This document shows positions 21,528-35,090 of a stretch of DNA of 36,128 nucleotides, in pieces (position 1 is the first letter of the stretch; each line of letters begins with the position of its first letter). The notes beneath the pieces were generated by a model. It saw only the letters and a program-made list of their open reading frames with translations. It ran no database searches and was not told the DNA's origin. The DNA comes from a virus. Location of the stretch: IMG/VR virus record IMGVR_UViG_3300031772_000132, positions 1 through 36,128 of that record; one strand, written 5' to 3'. The position numbers and the translations under genes were made by a program.

Positions 21528-22625
21528 TTGAATTTACTGCGCTGGATTTGGTTTATAACATTCTCAAGGGCGATTGATGGCTTTGTAGTCCTCGTCGCTC
21601 TCTTGTTTTTGCCAATATTCAAACGAAAGTACATGGGAAAATACGGAACGTTAGCTGATGCCCATCCAAGAATTTCCGAGACTGAGCTAATTTCAAAAGG
21701 TCCATTTGATCCGATCCGAGACAGGATGTTTTCTGATAACTCAGATAACCACAATCTTATGTGTCAGGTTGGGCATGGGTACTTTCATAAAGAAATTGCC
21801 GACATGATTTTAGATAAGGCCGTGACTCCTGTAGGCTCACTTTATCGAAAAGTTCCTCATCTAGAGAAATGGGGATTGGACCCATCACTTGATTGCCTGG
21901 CAGCGTTTTGCTATTTCTACGTAGTAGCTGATTGTAAGAAAAAAAACGTTCTTTCTCGACTTGCAAATCACCATTGGCAGACTTGTTTTAATCTCGCCAA
22001 TCATGATGGAACGATGAGCGGAAGATGCGCCAACGGGGGCCTAACTCTTGTTGGCGGGAACGCATGGCCAAAAGGTAAAAAGATTCTCGGGATAACAATC
22101 CCTTTTGGATTTACTAAACCAATTATCGGGCAATCATATCTAACTACTGCAGCGCTCTTAGCTCTTGCGGCTCACGAGCTCGGCGGTAAGTGGGTATGGC
22201 GCTATAAATTTTGGCGCTTTATGGCCTTTGGTTGGTTTTGGGAAAAGAACCCATGGCTACCTATGAGTAAGTACGTATTTACTTACGTTGGCCATGTAAC
22301 TCAAATGGCACTCTACGTTATCCATAAGTGCGGTCACGATATGACTAAAGGACTGCGCTGGAACGCAATCGACAATGCACCGCTTGGAGCTAAAGGTTTT
22401 CAGTACCAACCTTTTATTGCCGGCATGGCAGCTGATTGTGGAGTTTTAAACCATGAGGAAAAGAACGCGGCTCTAATTTGGTTAAGATCTAGGGCTGATG
22501 CATGGCCTCAAGTCGGGGTTGGTAGAGGCTATGCTCACTGGGATGATAATGGCCCAGAAGGGAAACAGCTTTGGTCTATGATGGCCCATTGCTGCGTACA
22601 ATTGACCGGGGTAAAAAATGAATAA
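21528..22625 (+). CDS. Uncharacterised 365-residue protein, possibly membrane-anchored enzyme
   Basis: I do not recognise this protein. The start is TTG at 21528, with AGGAG about five bases upstream. The N-terminus has one hydrophobic segment (about residues 8-30) and a basic patch (FKRKYMGKYG), fitting a membrane anchor. The rest is rich in Trp, His, Cys, Tyr and Gly. It shows repeated helix-forming segments (LDCLAAFCYFYVVADC and LTTAALLALAAHELGG), reminiscent of alpha/alpha barrel glycosidases or lyases. Its location between the fibre and the lysis genes would fit polysaccharide or envelope processing. That function is inference only. Confidence 0.6.
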   Translation: MNLLRWIWFITFSRAIDGFVVLVALLFLPIFKRKYMGKYGTLADAHPRISETELISKGPFDPIRDRMFSDNSDNHNLMCQVGHGYFHKEIADMILDKAVTPVGSLYRKVPHLEKWGLDPSLDCLAAFCYFYVVADCKKKNVLSRLANHHWQTCFNLANHDGTMSGRCANGGLTLVGGNAWPKGKKILGITIPFGFTKPIIGQSYLTTAALLALAAHELGGKWVWRYKFWRFMAFGWFWEKNPWLPMSKYVFTYVGHVTQMALYVIHKCGHDMTKGLRWNAIDNAPLGAKGFQYQPFIAGMAADCGVLNHEEKNAALIWLRSRADAWPQVGVGRGYAHWDDNGPEGKQLWSMMAHCCVQLTGVKNE

Positions 22626-22911
22626 TGATTTAATTCTCGGAGCAATTGGATTTGTTGCTGCCTTTGTAGTTAACGCTGCATGGAGTTGGATCAGTTCAAA
22701 AAGCAAAGATCAAGAGGCTGAGTTTCGCACTGAGCTAAAGGAAAACACAAGAGCCGTTAATCAGCTAACGCTTGTTCTTCAAAGAACCGAAATTGAATTA
22801 AAGCATCTTGCTGATAAGGTAATTGCCATACCTGAGATTGAGAAAGATTTGAACAAGCTAGGCGCAAAGGTAAGGCAAATGGAGGGGAAAAATGGATTGG
22901 GCGACACTTAA
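22618..22911 (+). CDS. Membrane-anchored coiled-coil protein (lysis-associated)
   Basis: The 97-residue protein has an N-terminal transmembrane segment (about residues 5-24, ILGAIGFVAAFVVNAAW) and then a continuous coiled coil to about residue 90. It overlaps the previous gene by eight bases and the M15 peptidase by 20. The build matches either an XhlA-type hemolysin or the inner-membrane spanin, both lysis helpers. Its coupling to the endolysin gene is the main evidence for a lysis role. Confidence 0.65.
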   Translation: MNNDLILGAIGFVAAFVVNAAWSWISSKSKDQEAEFRTELKENTRAVNQLTLVLQRTEIELKHLADKVIAIPEIEKDLNKLGAKVRQMEGKNGLGDT

Positions 22912-23380
22912 ATATTTCAAGGCTACCTCCATTACTGACAAGTGGGGAGATCCAACAAAAATGGACCCCTTTTTGATGAAATACCTAGATGAGTTTAGAG
23001 ACTGTGTTGGCACTCCTCTTGTGGTGACTAGTGCTTACCGTAAGGGGGACCCGGGCCAACATGGGTTAGGGAAGGCGGTAGACGTTATAGCACCACAATG
23101 GGGGGGCTCTTTATTTGACCTCTACTTATTGGCGGAGAGATTTGGATTTACTGGTATCGGAATCTACCGAGACTGGCTCTATAATGGTAAAAGATTAGGG
23201 GGCCTACACTTGGACACTCGAATCATAGTTGGGTCTTATAACCCGGCTTTAAAGGGAGCGCGTTGGTCTTGTGTTAGGCCAGGTTCGCAAAAGCTACAGA
23301 CTGAGCAAGAGATTTTAAAAATCAAGCAGGTTTATCTACCTCTTGATTTAAAGACTCTTAAGGACGAGGGTTTTATCTAA
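22892..23380 (+). CDS. M15-family peptidase, endolysin
   Basis: The 162-residue protein has the zinc-peptidase motif of the M15 (D-Ala-D-Ala carboxypeptidase/VanY-like) family: SAYRKGDPGQHGLGKAVDV at residues 47-65 with H57 and D64, then GLHLD at 104-108 with H106 as the third metal ligand. Such enzymes cut the peptide cross-links of peptidoglycan. No signal peptide is seen, so export through a holin lesion is expected. It follows the membrane/coiled-coil gene with overlap, and its stop shares one base with the next ATG. It is the best marker of the lysis region. Confidence 0.85.
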   Translation: MDWATLKYFKATSITDKWGDPTKMDPFLMKYLDEFRDCVGTPLVVTSAYRKGDPGQHGLGKAVDVIAPQWGGSLFDLYLLAERFGFTGIGIYRDWLYNGKRLGGLHLDTRIIVGSYNPALKGARWSCVRPGSQKLQTEQEILKIKQVYLPLDLKTLKDEGFI

Positions 23381-24476: not shown

Positions 24477-24758
24477 ATGGAAGAAATGATGGATATGATG
24501 GATAAAGAACCAAAGGGCGGCGATAAACTAAAAGAGGTAGCGGCTCATATCAAATCCGTTGCTAAAGAAATGGGAATTGCCCCAGAGGCTCTTCTTGAAA
24601 AGCTCGAGCCACTTTGCGCTAGCGAATCAGGCGAGCCAAAACTAGAAATTGAAATCGGATCAGAAGATGAATCCGAAGAGCCTAAAGAAGATGTATCAGG
24701 CAAAAAAGCTCTTGTTATTGCAATGATGAAAAAGAAGAACGGGAAAATGGATGCGTAG
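24477..24758 (+). CDS. Small acidic protein
   Basis: A 93-residue acidic protein (MEEMMDMMDKEPK...) with a helical core (about residues 18-47) and a Glu/Ser-rich disordered stretch (about 52-75), followed by a basic Lys/Met C-terminus. No family known. It overlaps the connector gene by eight bases. It might be a minor virion or assembly factor. Confidence 0.5.
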   Translation: MEEMMDMMDKEPKGGDKLKEVAAHIKSVAKEMGIAPEALLEKLEPLCASESGEPKLEIEIGSEDESEEPKEDVSGKKALVIAMMKKKNGKMDA

Positions 24759-25686
24759 AATCGACTTGCTCATTGATGAGGCCAGACACGAAACGGATAA
24801 CACTCAGTTCACTGATGAGACTGGTATTCAGACGTCTGAGTTCTTACGATGGGCAAACTCGGCTCAGACCCGCATCCTGTCTCTGATTCAACAGGCTCAT
24901 CCTGATTTATTTCAACGCTCTAGCGAAATCGCTGTAGTGCAAAATCAGGAAGAATATTCAATACCATCTAAGACATTCTTAGGTACCAGAGTACAAATGG
25001 TTGAGTATTCAAAATCAGGGCAGACAAGAGATTACTACCCATTAAAAAAGGGTAACCTTCATGAGAGAGTGAATGGACCGGCGGGAGATCCCGCTTTTTA
25101 CATTCGCTTTTCTAAAAAGGTTCTTATTCAACCGGCTCCTCAAAATACCGGCAAGCTAAGACTTATTACCCAGCTTGCATTGCCACGGCTTGATACTCGG
25201 CGAGCAACAGTTTTATCATCCGCTCTAACATCCGATACAATTACCTCTTTAAATTTTGACCCCTCTCTAAATATCGATCAAGAGGAGATTCAAAACGAAG
25301 GGTACATTTGCATTGTAGATAAAGACGGTAACATTCTTATGGAAGCTATCCCCGTAGAATCAATTGATATGACTACTGGTTTAGTAACCGTTTATTCAGG
25401 GTTCACTTTTCAATCTGGAGAAACTATTCCAGTCGGATCTTTTGCAGTTCTCGGCAGTTACTCATCTACTCATTCGGACCTGCCTGACGTTGCTGAAAGA
25501 TACGTAGTAGATTTTATGTGTTGGAAATTAGAAAAGCGTGACGCCAACTCTGCATCGCAAGAAATTAGCCAAGAATTAAAAGACCAAGAGGATGATATCG
25601 TAAGTAGTTTTGGAATACCTGACGACGATGTTTCTTACGTAACCGTTCTTGATTGTCAGTATTTAGATTACGACGAAAATTACTAA
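24751..25686 (+). CDS. Head-tail connector / adaptor protein
   Basis: A 311-residue protein with an N-terminal helical part (RIDLLIDEARHETDNT, about residues 3-18) and EFLRWANSAQTRILSLIQ (30-47), typical of connector proteins that sit below the portal in short-tailed phages (T7 gp11-like or P22 gp4-like). The middle is beta-rich. The C-terminal helix ends with the acidic LDYDENY. It precedes the nozzle-like gene with a one-base overlap. The call is by gene order and overall shape. Confidence 0.65.
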   Translation: MRRIDLLIDEARHETDNTQFTDETGIQTSEFLRWANSAQTRILSLIQQAHPDLFQRSSEIAVVQNQEEYSIPSKTFLGTRVQMVEYSKSGQTRDYYPLKKGNLHERVNGPAGDPAFYIRFSKKVLIQPAPQNTGKLRLITQLALPRLDTRRATVLSSALTSDTITSLNFDPSLNIDQEEIQNEGYICIVDKDGNILMEAIPVESIDMTTGLVTVYSGFTFQSGETIPVGSFAVLGSYSSTHSDLPDVAERYVVDFMCWKLEKRDANSASQEISQELKDQEDDIVSSFGIPDDDVSYVTVLDCQYLDYDENY

Positions 25687-28193
25687 TGGAACTTATAAAA
25701 AGATTCTTAAATCATAAGGGTGTCGACTTAAAAAGCTCGGACCTTTTGCGCTCTCCTGATTACGCATCAGACATGAGAAATGCTCAGTACTCTGATGGGG
25801 GAGCTCTTGAAAAGCGTAGAGGATACCAGGCTTGCGGCTCTAGTTGTGGCGGCTATGGCTTATTCACTTATAGAAGAGTTGACCCAACGAGCGGAGTAGC
25901 AGACCCACAAGTATTAACGATTGATAACAATCTATGGAAAAAAAACACCTCTAGTTTCACGGTGTCTTATTCTGGCTCAGATAATACTTGCGTTCTTAGT
26001 TTCTTTTTAGATTCAGATACGCTTACTTATAAACTGCAGGTCTTGGTTGGAACCTCTCTAGTTATCGATGAGGATGTTGGGGTTGGTTTTGATGAGGTGT
26101 CGGTTGTAACTCTTGCAGATTTTAAAACTGTTGTAGATGCGGTTACAGATTTCAGCGCCACAATTGTAGGGGACGTAAACGTCCCAGCTTCTTTCTTAAA
26201 GATTATTAGAGAGCAGGATTTAAACGTTGCTGACTGGGCGTCCTATGCTCAGTACTGGACGATGGCTAACACTCCATTGTCTAACCCGCTTCAAAGCTAT
26301 CTAGATAATCAGTACCAAGATGATCATGAGAACGTTTCATCTATTCAAATTAATAACGCCATTTACTTCGGGACTGGTTACAACGAGCTCTATAAATACG
26401 ATGGGCAGACTTTCTTTCGAGCGGGTATGCCAACTCCCGGGGCTTTAGCTGTTTCGGTTTCGGCTGGAGCGGTTACCGGGTCTAATTACATACACAAGAT
26501 TCAATACGCTCAATATGATGCGGCTGGGAATATTGTAGAGGGAAACCTAAAGAGTTCATCGGCTGTTACTGTTGCAGCAAAGCAATTTGATTTAACCGTT
26601 CCTCAAATTGAATATACTACTGGATTTAATACAAATTGCGCGATAGTCGCGGGAGCTCAGGTAAGTGTTACAACAATTACGGTCGATAATGGCTCAGGCG
26701 GTGCGAATACTTTTAACGTGGGTGATACCGCTTATTTTTTTGATTCTATTTCTGGAGCTTATGTGTCGAGAAAGATCACGGCCAGAACGAATCTCGCGAT
26801 CACTATTGAGGGTGCCGCGGTAACCATCTCCGACAACGCAGTGATTTCAAACAATCTAAGAATTTTAATCTGGAGATCCAAAGACTCTGGGTCTACTCCT
26901 AGTCTTTTTTATTTAGTAGATGAGATCCCAAATAACTCATTTGTTTCATCAGTTGCATATGCCGACAATAAGCTAGATTCTGCGCTTGGAGAATTGCTGC
27001 TTAACCCAGGGTCAGACAGAAGCCTGCCTCCTAAGGGTAAGTATGTTTCTCAGTGGAACGGCCAATTATTTATTGGCGGAAAAATTGATGATCCAACAAT
27101 TCTGGCATGGTCTGATATTGATGGGCCTGAATATTTTCCAATAGCTACAAACCAAATCTACGTAGAGCCAGGTAATGGAGATATTATTACGGGGATTGCG
27201 CCAAACAACGAAGTTTTTACAGTACATGGAGACGCTTCTTTCACTGTAATTTCTGGTGATATTGGATCGGGGCAGATTCGCGTTGAGACAAGAGCTCGTG
27301 ATATTGGGTGCGCGGCTCATGCAACGATTCAAGACTTAGACGGTATTTTAGTTTGGCTTTCTCCTCGTGGTCCAGTGCAGAGCTCGGGAGGCCAAATCCC
27401 TTTGCCACTAGGAGCAGCTATTGACCCATCAGAATCAAACCAAGCATCGAGAATAGACCCAGAATTTGATAATGACGGGAAAGTAGAAAACGAGAGACTC
27501 AGATTAAAGAGGTCTGTTGGTTATAATGACACCTCATCTGATAAATACATTTTGTTTGTACCTGCGGAAGATGGGGACGATTCTTTAAGATACCCAAATC
27601 AAAATTCTCTATGTTTTGTTTACGACAGAGTTCGAGACGCATGGCTCATTTGGGATAACTGGAATATGGCCGGCGGCATGACTGAATTTGAAAATGAGCT
27701 CTATTTCTCGGAGAGAAGATATTCTAACTTTGAGGGAGAAGTTCAATCTATTCTTTATAGAAAACACAACCTGATTGATGCCTTTGATTACGCTGACAAC
27801 AATGCGGCAGTTGATTTTGATTACTCTCCTCAGTGGGAGTTTTTAGGCGAGCCGTCAGTATTGAAAGATCCAATTGCAATCAAGATTTATTCTCTTGAGA
27901 CAGTGGCAAACAACGAATTTAGTTTAACTGTTGAGCAAGAGGTAAATTTTCAGTCTGATTCTGCTACCGCTACTTTTGTTATGGACATTGCCGGCGGCGG
28001 ATATGGATATTCAGCTTATGGAGAGGACCCTTATTCGGACCCGTCTCAAGATTCTTATACTCATCCTCTAGCAAGAGCTCGTCAGAGAAGCGTTAGACCT
28101 AGGTTTAAAAATAGCGTGATTCATGAGGCTGTGTTGATTACCGGTTGGGAGATTGAGTTCTCAGTTCCGTATCGTCCAGAATTTAAGCCATGA
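25686..28193 (+). CDS. Tail nozzle / tubular protein B-like
   Basis: From the ATG at 25686 (sharing one base with the previous stop) the protein is 835 residues, a large beta-rich protein. Its first 50 residues (NHKGVDLKSSDLLRSPDYAS and EKRRGYQ) resemble the start of T7 gp12-like nozzle proteins, where the N-terminus has ...PDILRYPEQ...KRP. Such proteins form the hexameric nozzle through which DNA leaves. The rest is beta-propeller-like, with motifs such as DDPTILAWSDIDGPEYFPIA (about 471-490) and DRVRDAWLIWDNW. It is followed by ATGA overlap. Confidence 0.7.
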   Translation: MELIKRFLNHKGVDLKSSDLLRSPDYASDMRNAQYSDGGALEKRRGYQACGSSCGGYGLFTYRRVDPTSGVADPQVLTIDNNLWKKNTSSFTVSYSGSDNTCVLSFFLDSDTLTYKLQVLVGTSLVIDEDVGVGFDEVSVVTLADFKTVVDAVTDFSATIVGDVNVPASFLKIIREQDLNVADWASYAQYWTMANTPLSNPLQSYLDNQYQDDHENVSSIQINNAIYFGTGYNELYKYDGQTFFRAGMPTPGALAVSVSAGAVTGSNYIHKIQYAQYDAAGNIVEGNLKSSSAVTVAAKQFDLTVPQIEYTTGFNTNCAIVAGAQVSVTTITVDNGSGGANTFNVGDTAYFFDSISGAYVSRKITARTNLAITIEGAAVTISDNAVISNNLRILIWRSKDSGSTPSLFYLVDEIPNNSFVSSVAYADNKLDSALGELLLNPGSDRSLPPKGKYVSQWNGQLFIGGKIDDPTILAWSDIDGPEYFPIATNQIYVEPGNGDIITGIAPNNEVFTVHGDASFTVISGDIGSGQIRVETRARDIGCAAHATIQDLDGILVWLSPRGPVQSSGGQIPLPLGAAIDPSESNQASRIDPEFDNDGKVENERLRLKRSVGYNDTSSDKYILFVPAEDGDDSLRYPNQNSLCFVYDRVRDAWLIWDNWNMAGGMTEFENELYFSERRYSNFEGEVQSILYRKHNLIDAFDYADNNAAVDFDYSPQWEFLGEPSVLKDPIAIKIYSLETVANNEFSLTVEQEVNFQSDSATATFVMDIAGGGYGYSAYGEDPYSDPSQDSYTHPLARARQRSVRPRFKNSVIHEAVLITGWEIEFSVPYRPEFKP

Positions 28194-28546
28194 ACTTTGG
28201 AGCTCTTAAAGAATTTCGCAAGAACCCGTCTAGCGATATTAGGCAGGTCATTGATTATCTATCAAATGAGCTTGCGGCTACGATTAGAGAACTTCGGGTA
28301 GGGCTTCAAAAGCTCACTTTTAAGGATAATTTCGACTCTTTTGAAGAGGTCCTAACTATCCCGGCTAATACTCAGGTTGAAATTACAAATAGGCTCCCAA
28401 CTATACCTAGCTATTTTCTTATACTAAGAAAAGACAAGGGCGGGTTATCAGTTAGCGAGGGAGATGTATGGACTCTGGAGAGAGTATACCTAAAGAACCA
28501 ATCAGCAACGGACCCGGCTCAGATAACAGTCCGATTCTTCAAATAA
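28190..28546 (+). CDS. Hypothetical virion-associated protein
   Basis: The 118-residue protein has an N-terminal helix (DIRQVIDYLSNELAATIRELRVGL, about residues 16-39) followed by beta strands (VLTIPANTQVEITN and YFLILRKDKGGLSV). It overlaps the nozzle gene as ATGA, so it is probably co-translated. The helix-then-strand layout suits a small trimer that sits below the nozzle or on the fibre attachment. The function is not established. Confidence 0.55.
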   Translation: MNFGALKEFRKNPSSDIRQVIDYLSNELAATIRELRVGLQKLTFKDNFDSFEEVLTIPANTQVEITNRLPTIPSYFLILRKDKGGLSVSEGDVWTLERVYLKNQSATDPAQITVRFFK

Positions 28547-29007
28547 TTGATTTCGATTTAATAAGAGACACCAATAAATTTCTGCCTGTTTTTTGGCAGG
28601 CGTGGCTATTCATCTTCGGAGAGGACCGCTCTGCTATGCAGCGCATAACGATTGCCGGCGAAGAACGTCAGGCAACGGAGATTGAAGGGCTACTCTATTG
28701 GTATCTTTTTGACCAAAGCTCTAAGATTAGAATCGCATTGTACGATAATGAAATAGTGGGTTTTGTGATTTACAATGAAGTCTTAGAGACTGTTCTCGCA
28801 ATCCGTATCTTGTATGCCCTTCCGGGCTTAGTCGGAACGAAAACAGGTTACAGGTTGATCGACTCACTACCTGGGATCAAAACTGTAATTTTTCAAACAG
28901 TAAGAGAAATAGAACCCGAACAAATGTTTTCAATTACTAGGGGTCGACAAGTAAAGCTAAATGAAACGCCTGAAATGATAACTTGGGCAATGAATTGGGA
29001 GAAATAA
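28468..29007 (+). CDS. GNAT-like acyltransferase-type protein
   Basis: The 179-residue protein overlaps the previous gene by 79 bases, with no other ATG, GTG or TTG in the early part of the frame, so I keep this start. The central region IRIALYDNEIVGFVIYN (about 90-106) has the arrangement of the GNAT core strands. It is followed by VLAIRILYALPG and GYRLIDSLPG, where a GNAT has the CoA-binding loop and helix. A catalytic assignment cannot be made. Phages often carry such genes in the tail cluster, for unknown reasons. Confidence 0.45.
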   Translation: MDSGESIPKEPISNGPGSDNSPILQIIDFDLIRDTNKFLPVFWQAWLFIFGEDRSAMQRITIAGEERQATEIEGLLYWYLFDQSSKIRIALYDNEIVGFVIYNEVLETVLAIRILYALPGLVGTKTGYRLIDSLPGIKTVIFQTVREIEPEQMFSITRGRQVKLNETPEMITWAMNWEK

Positions 29008-29008
29008 A

Positions 29009-29683
29009 ATGGCACGATACCAACCTTTAAATCAACAGCCTCCTACTGGTAAGGGAGGTCCTCAACGTACAGACCCAATGTTTAACGAGTCGAAAACAAA
29101 TCGAAATAATCGTTTAGCAAAAGAGGATATGGAAAAGCTGCTTAAAAACGAAAAGCAGTGGACTGGGGTTGAGCAGCGTAGAGCCTCCTCTTATGCTGAT
29201 GCTAGGCAAAAGGACCTGGCTACTGGGAAAGCTCGAGGCGAAGAGATTTTTGGTAATCAAGCTTTAGGTAGAATCTCGGAAGGATTCTCTCCCCAAGAGC
29301 AGCAATCAATGCGAGAACAAAACATGAAAGCGATTACTCAGTCGCAAATGGCTGGGGCTCGTGATTTAGCACGTTCTCAGGCTCGCTCTGGAGTTCGGGG
29401 GCCTTTAGCCTCGGCGCAAGCGGCTCAGCAAAATTTGGCTGGGCAGGGACAACTTGCTGATCAAGAGCGCCAATTGTTTCTAGAAAACATTGCTAATAAA
29501 AGATCAGGCCAGCAATTCAACTTAGGACAAGCTGAGAAAGAATTGATGGGTAAACAAGCCACTGAATTGGGGTACGGATCATTGGGAGCCGGCGAGCGAG
29601 CAGCTGCCATGCAGTCTGTTATTGGAGATAAGGCTTTGCTTGGTTCTAAGGATGTAGCTCGAATTTCAAAGGGTAAAAAATGA
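29009..29683 (+). CDS. Putative internal virion (ejection) protein
   Basis: A 224-residue, hydrophilic, Gln/Ala/Arg-rich protein with long helices (RISEGFSPQEQQSMREQ, then MAGARDLARSQARSGVRGP, about 95-130) and Ala-rich segments. This composition matches the core proteins of short-tailed phages that leave the head with the DNA. It lies with two other large helical genes between the tail genes and the end of the operon. No specific homolog is named. Confidence 0.55.
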   Translation: MARYQPLNQQPPTGKGGPQRTDPMFNESKTNRNNRLAKEDMEKLLKNEKQWTGVEQRRASSYADARQKDLATGKARGEEIFGNQALGRISEGFSPQEQQSMREQNMKAITQSQMAGARDLARSQARSGVRGPLASAQAAQQNLAGQGQLADQERQLFLENIANKRSGQQFNLGQAEKELMGKQATELGYGSLGAGERAAAMQSVIGDKALLGSKDVARISKGKK

Positions 29684-30717
29684 GACCCGGGACAATATCA
29701 ATCGGTGACGTTGCCGGAAGGATGAAAAAGAAAGACATCCAATCTGGAATGGCTGATGCTTTATCAGAGGCTACACAGACAGTTATTCCTGCAAGGGACC
29801 TTACTCCTGCCAAACTAAAAAAAGCCGAAGAATTCGCCAAAGGTATAGCGGCCTCTCCAGACCCCGAGGCTGGTATGGATGAGGTCATTAATAAGGAAAA
29901 GAAATCAAATAACGATAAAATTTATTTAGCTCTAGCAGCTACTATGCCTACAATTTTAGGCGCGGCCTTTGGCGGATCAGAGGGCGGGGCAATTGGAGCT
30001 AATGTGACCGGTAAGTTTTTTGGAGATCTTTCAAAAGACGCAAAGGACGACGAGGACAAAAGGCAGGCGGCTCAAGATAAACTAGATTTAGTTAAGGCCC
30101 AAGCTTCTGAGAGAGAGATTGCTCGTCAAGAGGCTCAAAAGGATAGAGAATCACAGGCTCAAATGAGCAGAGAATTTACAGCTGGGCAGAGAGATATATC
30201 TCGTCAAGAATCAAGATTAGATAAGCAAACTGCAATCGAAGAAGTTAAAAAGAAATCTCTTCTAGAAGTTGAGGACCGATACAACACTATCGAGCAAAAC
30301 TTAACTGAATTGCAGAAAATGGTTAAAGAAACCGGCGGATTTGATTTCACTGGCCCTCAAAACAAGCAAATGGAACAGCTGATTGATTCAATCGCTGTGG
30401 ATATGGCGAAGTTACAAGATCCAAGCTCAGTAGCTCGTGAGTCTGAGGTAGCGCAAGCTAAGAAATTATTGTTTGAGCCTGGATTTTTCCAGCGTCAGGG
30501 TAATATTGAAAAAGTTCTAAATAGTTTCAAAGAAATTGCCCAGCGTAAAAAGTCTACGGCTTATAAGGTCCGAGGTCTTGAGGCCCCGGCTGATATTTCT
30601 AGTCAAGAGGCTCCTCAGTTTGAGCCCGATGTTTTGAACTATGCAAAAACTCATGGGATTACTCCTGAGCAAGCGCAGATTATGAAAGAAAAGAATATGA
30701 GGCGCTTGGGACAATGA
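29680..30717 (+). CDS. Putative internal virion (ejection) protein, coiled coil
   Basis: The 345-residue protein overlaps the previous stop as ATGA. It has a Gly/Ala-rich hydrophobic segment (about residues 83-110, IYLALAATMPTILGAAFGGS), then a long charged coiled coil (about 120-240). The C-terminal part is helical with a FFQRQGNIEKVLNSF stretch. Membrane-interacting segment plus coiled coil is typical for proteins that form the channel through the host envelope during DNA injection. Confidence 0.6.
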   Translation: MRPGTISIGDVAGRMKKKDIQSGMADALSEATQTVIPARDLTPAKLKKAEEFAKGIAASPDPEAGMDEVINKEKKSNNDKIYLALAATMPTILGAAFGGSEGGAIGANVTGKFFGDLSKDAKDDEDKRQAAQDKLDLVKAQASEREIARQEAQKDRESQAQMSREFTAGQRDISRQESRLDKQTAIEEVKKKSLLEVEDRYNTIEQNLTELQKMVKETGGFDFTGPQNKQMEQLIDSIAVDMAKLQDPSSVARESEVAQAKKLLFEPGFFQRQGNIEKVLNSFKEIAQRKKSTAYKVRGLEAPADISSQEAPQFEPDVLNYAKTHGITPEQAQIMKEKNMRRLGQ

Positions 30718-33700
30718 GCGAGGCAACAAACGCTTTAAAATCAGCCGCTAAAATAGCGGAAGAGATTTTGAAAAAAAGTAAACGGCTGGCTCCAGAGGCT
30801 AAAGCTATTGAAGAAATTGCTAAAGCTCCATCATTAAAGGGAGCTGCTGAAGCCTTTGAGTTGGCTACAAAACGGCCAGACTTCGGGACCTATTCAAAGC
30901 TAGAAGAAATCATTCAACAAAAGATGCCTAACAAGGCTAGCCCTGAGCAGATTAGGGCAATCATTAAAGATGCTAAGCCGGATGAGGTAGCCTTTACTGG
31001 ATTAGAGGATTTGTTGAGCGGTAAAGCTCTAGATGACTCTGCCAAAAGTTCGCAAAAAAAAGCATTTGAGGAATGGCAGGATAAGGGCGCAAAGGCTTGG
31101 GAGACATTCTCAGATAATGGGGATGAATCAGCTTTTAAAACAGCTGTAGAAAAGCATAAATTAGAAAGACCGTCTCTAGCAGTCCCAGAGAAAAAATCCT
31201 CTTTAACAAAAGACGAGGTTTTAAAACAGGTTAGAGAGAATCAACCTAAGTTAAATGAAATTACTTTAGGCTCAGTTAAGGCTGATCAACAGTTGATGAT
31301 GGGCATGGAGGACAATCTAGACAAACTTCAAAAAATCAGAGATTTGGCCTCGGAAAAGTTGAATTCGTCCTCGGAAAATCTGGTATCAAAGCTAGTTAAG
31401 GAACACGGGTTTTCTGAAAAAAGAGCTAAGGATTTAGTTTCTCAAAGCAAGTGGGCAAAAGATGACCAAATGGTTCGAGGCGGGGATATTTATACATTAT
31501 ATAGAACCGCTTTGCCCGAAGGCTCCAGCCTCAATATCGATGACTTTGTAGAGTTGTTAAAGCAAGATCGAAAGGCTGGCAGAGAATTGACCTCTGCAGT
31601 TAGAGAATACAATACAAAAAGTACTGAGGCAGCAAGAGGAACTAATACAAAATATCAAAAATACTCTTTAGAGGGCGGAAAGAACTACAAAGAGACACTG
31701 ATTCAAAATCCTGATCCTGGTTTTACTCGTAGACAATACAAATCAGGGCATTGGGATAAGCCTGACGTATTGGCTCACGTTCGATCTCAAGAGTTTACTG
31801 ACACTCAGGGTAAGAAACTTTTCAACATTGAAGAAATTCAGTCTGATTGGCATCAACAAGGGCGGAAAAGCGGTTACTCCTCAAAAGATACCCAGAAAAA
31901 TCTTTTAGCTAAAGATAAAGAAGTAAGCGATTTTGGCAAAGAGACGACTGCAATGACTAAAAAGTTTGAAGCCCAACAGGGTAAAATACTTAAATTGATC
32001 GGCCAGTCTGACTCATTAACTGGAAATAAAAGAGCAAACATTTACCAGATTATAACCGACCCAGATTTTAAGCTAAATGACTTGGGTAAAGTAGGGACTC
32101 AGGGAGGACGGGAGGCTATAGACATTGTGAAAAGTGAAGAAATGGCAAAAGAGCTTTCTGCTTTTCAAAAATTGAGTGCCGAAAAGGAAGCCGTTTTTAG
32201 TAAATGGGGGCAGATCAGGAGTGAACAAGACGCATTGCTGAGAGCGTCTGAAACTCCAGATGCTCCGTTCAAGAAAACATGGCACGAGCTAGCTCTAAAG
32301 AAATCATTGAAAGACGCCGTTGATTCTGGCGCGGATAGAATGAGTTGGACTCCTGGGGCAGAGCAAGCGGATAGATACTCTTTAGCCAAAACGATAAATA
32401 CCATAACCTATCAGCCATCTGAGGGAAGACTAATAGCCGTTTCAACCGATGGTAAAAGGGTTCTTGACCAAAAGGGCATACCTGTTGAAAAGTTAGAAGA
32501 ATATATCGGGAAAGACCCAGCTAGAAAAATAGCAGAGGGAAAACCTAACTCTGAAGGATTTATTGATTTAGAAAACGCTGATTTAAAAATGGGCGGCGAG
32601 GGGATGAAAGGTTTCTATGACCAAATTATTCCCTCATATCTCAAGAAATTATCTAAGCAGTTTGATGCTCCCATGGGAGAGACAATCATCAATACAGGCG
32701 GCAGAGAGCTTAAAGTCCCCTATATCGAGCTTAGCGAAAAGCTAAAGACACAAATTAAAACTAAGGGGATGCCGCTGTTTGCAACGGCAGCGGCAATTGG
32801 TTTTGGAACGTCTAGCAATGAGGCGAGTGCGTCTGAGGGTAATATGGGACAAAAGAAAAAAGCATTATCATGGGATGAAATACCTCCTCAGCCAGGTGAC
32901 CTAGAGCCACAAGAACAACAGGCTCAAGGGGCAATGTCTTGGGACGAGATACCGCCACAACCAGGAGATTTAGAAGAAGAACCAAGTGCTTTGAAACAAT
33001 TTGGGGCTAAGGCTCTTGGTAAGGTAGCAGAGGCCGCTGAGTGGTTTGATGCTCGTACAGGTGCGCCGTCTCGTAAGGCCATTGGAGTATTGCAAGAGGA
33101 CTTTACTGACGTACCAGGGGCATGGGAGGCGGCTAAGCAGCAATACGGAGCTCCGACTCAACTAGCGCCTACTGGTAAACAATTATCTATTAGGGCAGGA
33201 GTTCCGACAACTTCATTATCAGAAGTAGCTCCAGGAATGTTTTCGGATACAGGTGAAGAGTGGCTTAAATTTCGTAAGGGCGGGTTTGCTGATGTGAGCC
33301 CTGCCGGCGTTACTGGGCTTGTAACTGATATCACCGCCGATCCAACAAATCTTATCCCTGTTGGGAAATTATTAAAGGGAGGTAAGGCCGCTACTCAAGA
33401 GCTTGTAGGTTTCATTAGAGGAGTCGGGAAAGAACTACCAGAGGCGGCTCGAGTCGCAAAGGTAGCCTCTCAAATGGCCTCAGAGCCCGGCGTTTACCAA
33501 ACAGTTAAAAATGCAGTTCAAGACACCGCTAAATCTGTAGAGAAATTAGTTAAGCCTGGTATCTCGCCAACATGGGAGCACTACCGAGGAGTAGCAGTTA
33601 AGCACGGTATTGATCCGGCCATTCTACAGGGCGGAGCACTTGAGCATGGTGCGAATACTCTCATCACTCGAAGTCGGCAAAAGCTTGCTCAAGGTATTGG

Positions 33701-35090
33701 CGGTGAGACCTTTAGAAATAAATATATGCAAGGTCTCTCGTCGATTTATGATGCTACGAAAAAAGTAGTGAATAAAATTGGTGACGGTGCTGAGCCTTTA
33801 GCAAGAACGGACGCTGGGGAAGTCATTGCTCAGGAGTTTAAAAACACTCAAAAGAATTTCTTCCAGAAAATGGATATTACCTACAACACGGTTTTATCTC
33901 AATTGCCTCCTAACGCTCCAATCCCAACAATGGCATTGAAAGCGTATAAACAATCGATTGATCCAGTTGTTACTCAATTAATCGAACGTTCAAAAAACAA
34001 GTTTTTAAATCCAACAGTAAGAGCTCAGGCTAAGGCTCTGGCAGCTGATTTAAAAGCTGCCGGCAAAGCTAATGGAACCATGCAAGAGCTTCGAGAGGGA
34101 ATGACTCAATTAAAAGATGCTTTTGAAAACTCTTATCTAGCAAAAGATATGCCCTTAGAAATCCGTACTATGCGGGAGCTTTATAAGAAGAGCTCTGAGG
34201 CGTTCATTGATGGCACTGAGGACTACTTGGGTAAAGAAGTTTCATCGGCTCTAAGAGACAACAATAAGGCAATGACTGAATGGTTTAGAAAAACTGAGCG
34301 ACTGGATGATATTCTCTCAGGCGGGAAGTCAGGCGAAGAGGTCTTTAGAAAAACTATTGAAAACGCTGACTCAAATATGCTTCGGGATATGCGAGTTATT
34401 TTTGATCAAAATCCCGGTGTTTTGAAGAGAGCAAAAGCGGCGTTTATTGATGGGCTCATGAAAGTTGACGAGGATGGGATGTTTTCATTCGCTCGTTTTA
34501 ACAACAAGATCCGGGACCCAAAATCTAAGATGATCTTAAAAGAGCTCTTTACTCCGGAAGAGGTTACAGAGCTCTTGGAACTTACAAAGATGGGTGAGGA
34601 AATGGGTCCTCAGATTTTAAACCCATCAAGAACAGCTGAGTTTTTGGGACTTGAGTTAAGCCCTAAAAACATTGCTGGAGAAGCGGCGCAAAGATCCATT
34701 ATTGATATTCTAGAAAAGCAAGCTAGGTCCAGAGGAGTGGGGAAAGCTGCAGAGGTCATCCCTGAGGCGGTTCAAGAGCCGGGACTTGTGAAAGAGTTTG
34801 GAAATCAGCTTAAGTATGGCGGAGCTTTTGCGGCAGGGGCAGAGGGGCTTGGAGAAATGTTACAAGATCCGAAAACAATAGCAGCAAAAGAAATAATGCG
34901 TCAGTCAGGACGTATGCAAGAACAGCCTCAAGATATGGACGTTCCGCTCGACTATATGCCTCAGTTAGAAAAAGACATTATGAGTCGCGGCAAAATGAGT
35001 AACACTGAAAAGGCTCAGTTACTCTATCGCGCTAAAAAAGAGGGTAAGATAAACTTAGACGCTTTAAATAGGATTCAAGAGGGGAGATAA
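30714..35090 (+). CDS. Giant multidomain internal virion protein (polyvalent-type)
   Basis: The 1458-residue protein is the largest in the genome. Its N-terminal region (to about 330) is helical. A conserved module runs from about 335 to 690, with GHWDKPDVLAHVRSQ (about 344-358), IEEIQSDWHQQGRKSGY (about 371-387) and PFKKTWHELALKKSL (about 517-531), ending GFYDQIIPSYLKKL and KGMPLFATAAA. I know this module from large phage proteins. Its activity is not settled. A linker carries two copies of (L/M)SWDEIPPQPGDLE (717 and 740). The second half (about 760-1458) is mainly helical, like an ejected core protein. It overlaps the upstream gene as ATGA. Confidence 0.7.
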   Translation: MSEATNALKSAAKIAEEILKKSKRLAPEAKAIEEIAKAPSLKGAAEAFELATKRPDFGTYSKLEEIIQQKMPNKASPEQIRAIIKDAKPDEVAFTGLEDLLSGKALDDSAKSSQKKAFEEWQDKGAKAWETFSDNGDESAFKTAVEKHKLERPSLAVPEKKSSLTKDEVLKQVRENQPKLNEITLGSVKADQQLMMGMEDNLDKLQKIRDLASEKLNSSSENLVSKLVKEHGFSEKRAKDLVSQSKWAKDDQMVRGGDIYTLYRTALPEGSSLNIDDFVELLKQDRKAGRELTSAVREYNTKSTEAARGTNTKYQKYSLEGGKNYKETLIQNPDPGFTRRQYKSGHWDKPDVLAHVRSQEFTDTQGKKLFNIEEIQSDWHQQGRKSGYSSKDTQKNLLAKDKEVSDFGKETTAMTKKFEAQQGKILKLIGQSDSLTGNKRANIYQIITDPDFKLNDLGKVGTQGGREAIDIVKSEEMAKELSAFQKLSAEKEAVFSKWGQIRSEQDALLRASETPDAPFKKTWHELALKKSLKDAVDSGADRMSWTPGAEQADRYSLAKTINTITYQPSEGRLIAVSTDGKRVLDQKGIPVEKLEEYIGKDPARKIAEGKPNSEGFIDLENADLKMGGEGMKGFYDQIIPSYLKKLSKQFDAPMGETIINTGGRELKVPYIELSEKLKTQIKTKGMPLFATAAAIGFGTSSNEASASEGNMGQKKKALSWDEIPPQPGDLEPQEQQAQGAMSWDEIPPQPGDLEEEPSALKQFGAKALGKVAEAAEWFDARTGAPSRKAIGVLQEDFTDVPGAWEAAKQQYGAPTQLAPTGKQLSIRAGVPTTSLSEVAPGMFSDTGEEWLKFRKGGFADVSPAGVTGLVTDITADPTNLIPVGKLLKGGKAATQELVGFIRGVGKELPEAARVAKVASQMASEPGVYQTVKNAVQDTAKSVEKLVKPGISPTWEHYRGVAVKHGIDPAILQGGALEHGANTLITRSRQKLAQGIGGETFRNKYMQGLSSIYDATKKVVNKIGDGAEPLARTDAGEVIAQEFKNTQKNFFQKMDITYNTVLSQLPPNAPIPTMALKAYKQSIDPVVTQLIERSKNKFLNPTVRAQAKALAADLKAAGKANGTMQELREGMTQLKDAFENSYLAKDMPLEIRTMRELYKKSSEAFIDGTEDYLGKEVSSALRDNNKAMTEWFRKTERLDDILSGGKSGEEVFRKTIENADSNMLRDMRVIFDQNPGVLKRAKAAFIDGLMKVDEDGMFSFARFNNKIRDPKSKMILKELFTPEEVTELLELTKMGEEMGPQILNPSRTAEFLGLELSPKNIAGEAAQRSIIDILEKQARSRGVGKAAEVIPEAVQEPGLVKEFGNQLKYGGAFAAGAEGLGEMLQDPKTIAAKEIMRQSGRMQEQPQDMDVPLDYMPQLEKDIMSRGKMSNTEKAQLLYRAKKEGKINLDALNRIQEGR

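Follow-up and report, generated by a model that had tools for sequence, protein, structure and literature searches.

A predicted GNAT-fold phage module fused to the third ejection protein of a podovirus lineage

Here, we show that a single gene of the virus record IMGVR_UViG_3300031772_000132, which is complete in the analysed window (the whole stretch of 36,128 bases), joins two proteins in one polypeptide. The gene (30714..35090, + strand) encodes 1458 aa, in which a polyvalent module with a predicted GNAT fold (residues 1-710) precedes the third ejection protein of a podovirus (residues 711-1458). That two virion-associated genes, once separate, have fused here is well supported. Whether the product acts as an acyltransferase-like effector of GNAT fold, carried in the virion through its fusion to an ejection protein, we judge to be an even call, and this reading draws on the ORF, the fusion, the syntenic third slot, the polyvalent context, the predicted fold and an invariant tyrosine. 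Polyvalent proteins and swappable ejection-protein domains are already known; as far as the papers and libraries consulted show, what appears to be new is that a common module is assigned a GNAT fold and is fused directly to an ejection protein.

The ORF is uninterrupted and ATG-initiated, and its 1458 codons agree in borders and strand with those given by an earlier sequence-only reading of this DNA. Genes for terminase, portal, a scaffold-like protein, major head protein, fibres and an M15-type endolysin (a separate gene, 22892-23380) lie 5' of it. They are accompanied by an SU10-type head-tail adaptor (24751..25686, + strand; Pfam SU10_adaptor E 4e-8, above the cut-off) and a tail hub/nozzle-like protein (25653..28193, + strand; phrog_8040, head closure Hc3). 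Based on position and on homologues in syntenic relatives, the two genes directly upstream encode the first (224 aa, 29009..29683, + strand) and second (345 aa, 29680..30717, + strand) ejection proteins of an apparent triad, of which the target looks like the third gene. It is also the last gene of the tail/ejection cluster, and such a setting among virion and packaging genes, the criterion used for polyvalent proteins, is consistent with injection. Between the tail hub and the ejection proteins sits a small stand-alone GNAT (28468-29007; Pfam Acetyltransf_1 just under the cut-off), which is retained in at least five relatives (L165, L171, L172, L175 and L195); gp37 of Pelagibacter phage HTVC028P, annotated as an acetyltransferase, occupies the equivalent position. 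Further upstream, a 365-aa protein between the fibre and endolysin genes (21528-22625) had no match in Pfam or PHROG.

On profile-level similarity and synteny, residues 711-1458 (748 aa, 32844..35090, + strand) are the third ejection protein of this podovirus lineage, in a slot like that of T7 gp16. Using the tail hub as bait, we collected 44 loci of the same lineage, 21 of them with a readable third slot. That slot was filled in 21/21 relatives, usually by a protein of 624-1087 aa (1590 aa in L165), and the N-terminal module was absent from all 21 loci. Residues 701-1458 aligned end to end with a profile of the 21 third-slot proteins (hhalign 69.5%, E 5.4e-6, 648 columns), while the controls, namely the N-terminal half, the reversed C-terminal half and eight shuffles, all stayed below 0.3%. 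HMMER gave the C-terminal half 14.7 bits against the third-slot profile, compared with 6.4 bits for the best of 200 shuffles. This homology is visible only via a profile of many relatives: direct homologue searches with the C-terminal half returned no match. A pairwise alignment with the L165 protein was dropped as proof of homology because composition alone gives z ~3. The expectation that the protein is likely ejected gains further support from this third position in 21 syntenic relatives, one of which (L171) matches phrog_342 (E 3.9e-8), annotated as internal virion protein with endolysin domain. A 700-residue helical half had also been described, and it corresponds to the C-terminal half; the first reading did not recognise it as a separate ejection-protein domain, nor did it see the two-gene fusion or the GNAT-like fold of the module. 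In the closest long relative (L165:15167-19939) it is the C-terminus that bears the 700 additional residues (P0002), with no Pfam hit, whereas those of the target are at the N-terminus, suggesting that the slot may accept cargo at either end.

The junction retains traces of this history. Just after M711, the motif SWDEIPPQPGDLE is present twice (residues 719-731 and 742-754; 32868..32975, + strand). These copies had been taken for a linker with a repeated motif; the repeat is real, but the supposed linker is the native start of the ejection protein, i.e., the former N-terminus of the second gene. Of all windows along the protein, the one spanning the first 60 residues is the most self-repetitive in 13 of the 21 relatives, and M711-770 holds this rank in the target. 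N-terminal tandem doublets occur in L171, L174, L178, L180, L190, L198, L202 and others, with a motif sequence that differs per lineage; perhaps they serve third ejection proteins as a packaging or docking tag. Counted from M711, the protein has 748 aa, and its relatives often have 716-767. The simplest history is that a module gene lay upstream of the ejection-protein gene and the stop separating the two was lost. We infer that translation may also begin at the in-frame internal ATG of M711 and yield the core by itself; this ATG is preceded at 5 nt by GAGG (32835..32838, + strand). As a ribosome-binding site this GAGG is suggestive only, with an equally good match at 15% of internal ATGs.

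The N-terminal module is widespread. We found it encoded in 136 stretches of viral DNA and in another 130 from bacterial and archaeal genomes, many bacterial MAGs among them. It occurs alone or within large polyvalent proteins, and its carriers range in length from about 250 to more than 5000 aa. Its partners in 26 full-length carriers include ART-PolyVal (8), LPD38 (3), ddrB-ParB (3), LPD3 (3) and InPase (2), along with PBECR1/2, kinase and transglycosylase domains, which substantiates the label "polyvalent-type" for the module. In 38 complete ORFs the module stands at the very C-terminus, and many of these have 670-780 aa, the size of residues 1-710 of the target. No Pfam (58 members scanned) or NCBIfam model covers the module, the PDB held no match to the protein by sequence, and no mention of the motifs was found in the papers and family libraries searched. 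GH46 and DUF2383 were both below the cut-off and were rejected as identities; phrog_7348 "endolysin" was rejected as well, being a giant mixed profile that includes the module.

The module has several conserved segments. A conserved upstream block (residues 60-104 and 160-190, separated by a lineage-specific insert; 30891..31283, + strand) was recovered by carrier-profile match. It is followed by the EEIQSD motif (373-378; 31830..31847, + strand) on or after predicted strand beta4, by PFKKTWHEL (518-526; 32265..32291, + strand) where alpha3 begins, the site that the pyrophosphate loop occupies in GNATs, and by GGEGMKGFYD (627-636; 32592..32621, + strand) at the start of alpha4. Y635 in the last of these is invariant (153/153 distinct sequences), and at least 93% conservation across about 150 distinct homologues was seen at R357, E374, Q376, S377, P518, W523, A535, G548 and R554, as well as at G627/G628/G630/M631/F634/D636. 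The motifs HWD, EEIQSDWHQ and PFKKTWHEL had been called strict, and the module is indeed conserved across the viral and cellular stretches, but HWD is near-strict only at H346 (consensus SSHxDxPN). Similarly, a hydrophobic segment does exist at residues 681-699, the C-terminal end of the module, but with a mean Kyte-Doolittle value of 0.78 across 19 residues it is weak and makes no convincing membrane helix, leaving a transmembrane role unsupported.

Structure prediction places a GNAT-fold domain at residues about 310-690 (31641..32783, + strand; AlphaFold2 models with VIA-align against the PDB), interrupted by a coiled-coil insert between beta4 and alpha3 (residues about 391-512; 31884..32249, + strand) that is absent from the compact relatives L073 and L136. 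A first AlphaFold2 model, of target residues 300-705 with an alignment of 58 sequences, reached pLDDT 85, and its fold matches were dominated by the insert. We set aside SMC, LSD1 and IpaB as common-arrangement matches to the coiled coil; the matches that spanned the whole domain were the C-domain of Rv1916 (ICL2-type) and NatD, both GNAT folds, although the GNAT signal was weaker with this coil-bearing model. A second model, in which the insert-free relative L073 was folded with 78 homologues, reached pLDDT 87.9 and pTM 0.82. Against the PDB, all of the best 50 VIA matches listed for it were GNAT folds (Z 7.0-8.7, 98-137 residues), with AtaT at 8.7, KacT at 8.6, TacT3 at 8.5, the ICL2 C-domain at 8.3, GCN5 at 8.1 and NatD at 8.0; TacT, Naa10, SSAT and Eis were also among the matches listed. 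AtaT, KacT and TacT are tRNA-acetylating toxins. The scores are modest (Foldseek E about 0.02, and a VIA Z of 7-8.7 is in the middling range), comparison of the module with GNAT profiles was not significant (hhalign, 0.8%), and Pfam GNAT hits were absent in 58 members. Therefore, we describe the core of the module as a predicted, strongly derived GNAT fold outside the canonical family, an assignment that is well supported. Folding this region was the check proposed by the sequence-only reading, and it returned a GNAT fold with the conserved segments predicted, by topology, to surround the cleft.

Canonical GNAT enzymes bind the acyl-CoA pyrophosphate through an R/Q-x-x-G-x-G/A loop between beta4 and alpha3 and keep a general-acid tyrosine at the start of alpha4. 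That loop is missing in the module, where PDAPFKKTW stands at its position, and for this reason the module is not filed as a canonical GNAT. The hhalign alignment to GNATs, though not significant, likewise puts VPDAPFKKNW on the pyrophosphate loop. Y635, the 7th residue of alpha4 in the L073-based model, probably occupies the general-acid position; topology, rather than residue-level superposition, points to this equivalence, and by the same reasoning the tyrosines mutated in the PDB entries titled AtaT Y144F and KacT Y145F would be its counterparts. In the models, E373/E374 (beta4), the PFKKTW loop (alpha3 start), TxGxxQAxR (after beta5) and Y635 (alpha4) are predicted from topology to line a GNAT-type cleft. 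Catalysis by the module is no more than likely, since a GNAT fold can also be regulatory: the ICL2 C-domain serves as an acetyl-CoA-binding regulatory domain (PMC6788997).

The pairing of the module with an ejectosome is not confined to this lineage. In a second podovirus lineage, comprising L005, L014, L013, L020, L032, L049 and the isolate HTVC028P, a gene of its own encodes the module directly 5' of an internal virion protein. These virion proteins are mutually homologous, have 951-992 aa where complete, and match phrog_6651 in L005. The two genes overlap by one base in most contigs. In L005, L014, L013, L020 and L049, the final base of the module gene's stop codon also opens the start codon that follows, which hints at coupled translation. 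Since these pelagiphage-type proteins are not detectably homologous to the core of the target, module and ejectosome have been joined in two settings, adjacent and fused. HTVC028P gp34 and its IMG/VR counterparts in L005, L014, L013, L020 and L049 carry the same module, at the C-terminus of the protein, and are encoded among the ejection proteins, directly 5' of the internal virion protein. They differ from the target in being separate genes rather than part of a fusion, and in HTVC028P the MKGF that precedes the conserved Tyr has been lost. Stand-alone copies also occur beside packaging and head genes, right after portal in L026 and ahead of terminase in L023.

Polyvalent proteins of phages and conjugative elements have been proposed to be injected with DNA (Iyer et al. 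2017, PMC5512222). Such proteins contain the module alongside ART-PolyVal, LPD1/3/5/14/23/38, ddrB-ParB, InPase, PBECR1/2 and Kinase-PolyVal. Many other carriers show several disparate activities per polypeptide, whereas the target has just one recognisable effector-like module joined to an ejection protein, with no second enzyme in Pfam. The same study described 40 LPDs and two polyvalent GNAT families, both RimI-like and phyletically narrow, being found in gammaproteobacterial phages or conjugative elements (PMC5512222). Compared by description, our module is phyletically broad and not RimI-like by Pfam, but it may overlap one of the families or LPDs of that study that never entered Pfam. 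With GNAT enzymes (AtaT/KacT/TacT, GCN5, NatD and SSAT) and the ICL2 C-domain it shares the predicted beta4-alpha3-beta5-alpha4-beta6-beta7 topology, the Tyr at the start of alpha4 and the Glu on beta4; it departs from GNATs in having DAPFKxxW for the CoA loop, extra beta-hairpins between beta5 and alpha4, and a coiled coil after beta4. Among ejection proteins, T7 gp16 carries a transglycosylase N-terminal to the part that serves the membrane and DNA translocation, domains of this kind are exchanged among ejection proteins, and gp16-like proteins vary in domain content and in size from 609 to 1337 aa (PMC8954989). Like T7 gp16 and P22 gp16, the target is the third and largest of a triad 3' of the tail hub, with a helical core. 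The enzymatic domain of T7 gp16 is likewise on the N-terminal side, but it is a transglycosylase there and GNAT-fold here, and with 1458 aa the target exceeds both the gp16-like range and the usual length of its lineage relatives, which are without the N-terminal module. Phage SU10 was shown by proteomics to expel the ejection proteins gp20-24 from its head (PMC9509320). Its adaptor family is common to the phage studied here, which is known from metagenomic sequence alone.

We propose that the C-terminal 748 residues would be packaged in the head, leave before the DNA and form part of the envelope-crossing channel. In the most likely scenario, the module, being N-terminal in the ejection protein, would ride into the cell with the DNA and then acylate a host protein or RNA early in infection. 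Acyl-CoA is cytoplasmic, and acetyl-CoA is not expected in the periplasm. Topology is thus the main difficulty for acylation, since the N-terminal part of T7 gp16 remains in the periplasm (PMC8954989), and the earlier suggestion of an effector acting on the host at entry stays conditional. The module would need release, cytoplasmic entry, another donor, or action before ejection. A bolder form of the proposal, which we regard as rather unlikely, is that the widespread but unnamed EExQSDW...PFKxxW...GMKGFYD domain constitutes a new class of GNAT-fold enzymes whose cofactor loop is non-canonical, sent into the host by fusion, and that the M711 start still yields the unfused ejection protein, in which case the enzyme would be present on just a fraction of the channel subunits.

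Three other readings were weighed against this effector proposal. The module could be a non-catalytic GNAT-fold domain, acting as a ligand sensor or as a structural or chaperone part of the ejectosome. The missing canonical CoA loop, the lack of sequence similarity to GNAT enzymes and a long coiled-coil insert of very variable length, which suggests a protein-protein role, all fit such a domain, as does the ICL2 C-domain, which is regulatory upon acetyl-CoA binding (PMC6788997) and is among the best structural matches. However, about 150 very diverse proteins share an invariant Tyr together with Glu, Arg, Gln and Trp residues that hardly vary, a pattern resembling a catalytic site. The module also accompanies known effector enzymes, ART-PolyVal for example, and 21 relatives do without it; we consider a non-catalytic role unlikely. 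Catalysis in the producing cell instead, on virion or host proteins during late infection or head assembly, with packaging merely through fusion, seems improbable to us. It would agree with the stand-alone copies among packaging and head genes (L026, L023), for which late expression is expected, but the recurrent adjacency or fusion to the last ejection protein in two podovirus lineages fits delivery better, and carriers pair the module with effector domains thought to be injected (PMC5512222).

We give little credence to action in the periplasm, on peptidoglycan or another envelope component at entry. The cytoplasmic location of acyl-CoA counts against it, no hydrolase fold or motif was found in the module, the phage has its separate M15-like endolysin, and polyvalent proteins of 1000-5000 aa that contain the module have activities of a cytoplasmic type. 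The layout of T7 gp16, with an enzymatic N-terminal part ahead of the membrane/channel part, is nevertheless shared by the target, and the gp16-like enzymatic domain is phage-specific and swaps between ejection proteins (PMC8954989).

The module is present in more than a hundred viral and bacterial-genome loci across many phyla and has been without a family model, and a GNAT-fold label would give many unnamed giant phage proteins a testable function. The fusion ties "polyvalent" effector modules directly to the DNA-ejection machinery, a connection hitherto mostly inferred from gene context, and names Y635, E373/E374, R554 and K520 as residues with which enzyme delivery at entry could be tested. 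This phage may bring an enzyme into the cell together with its DNA.
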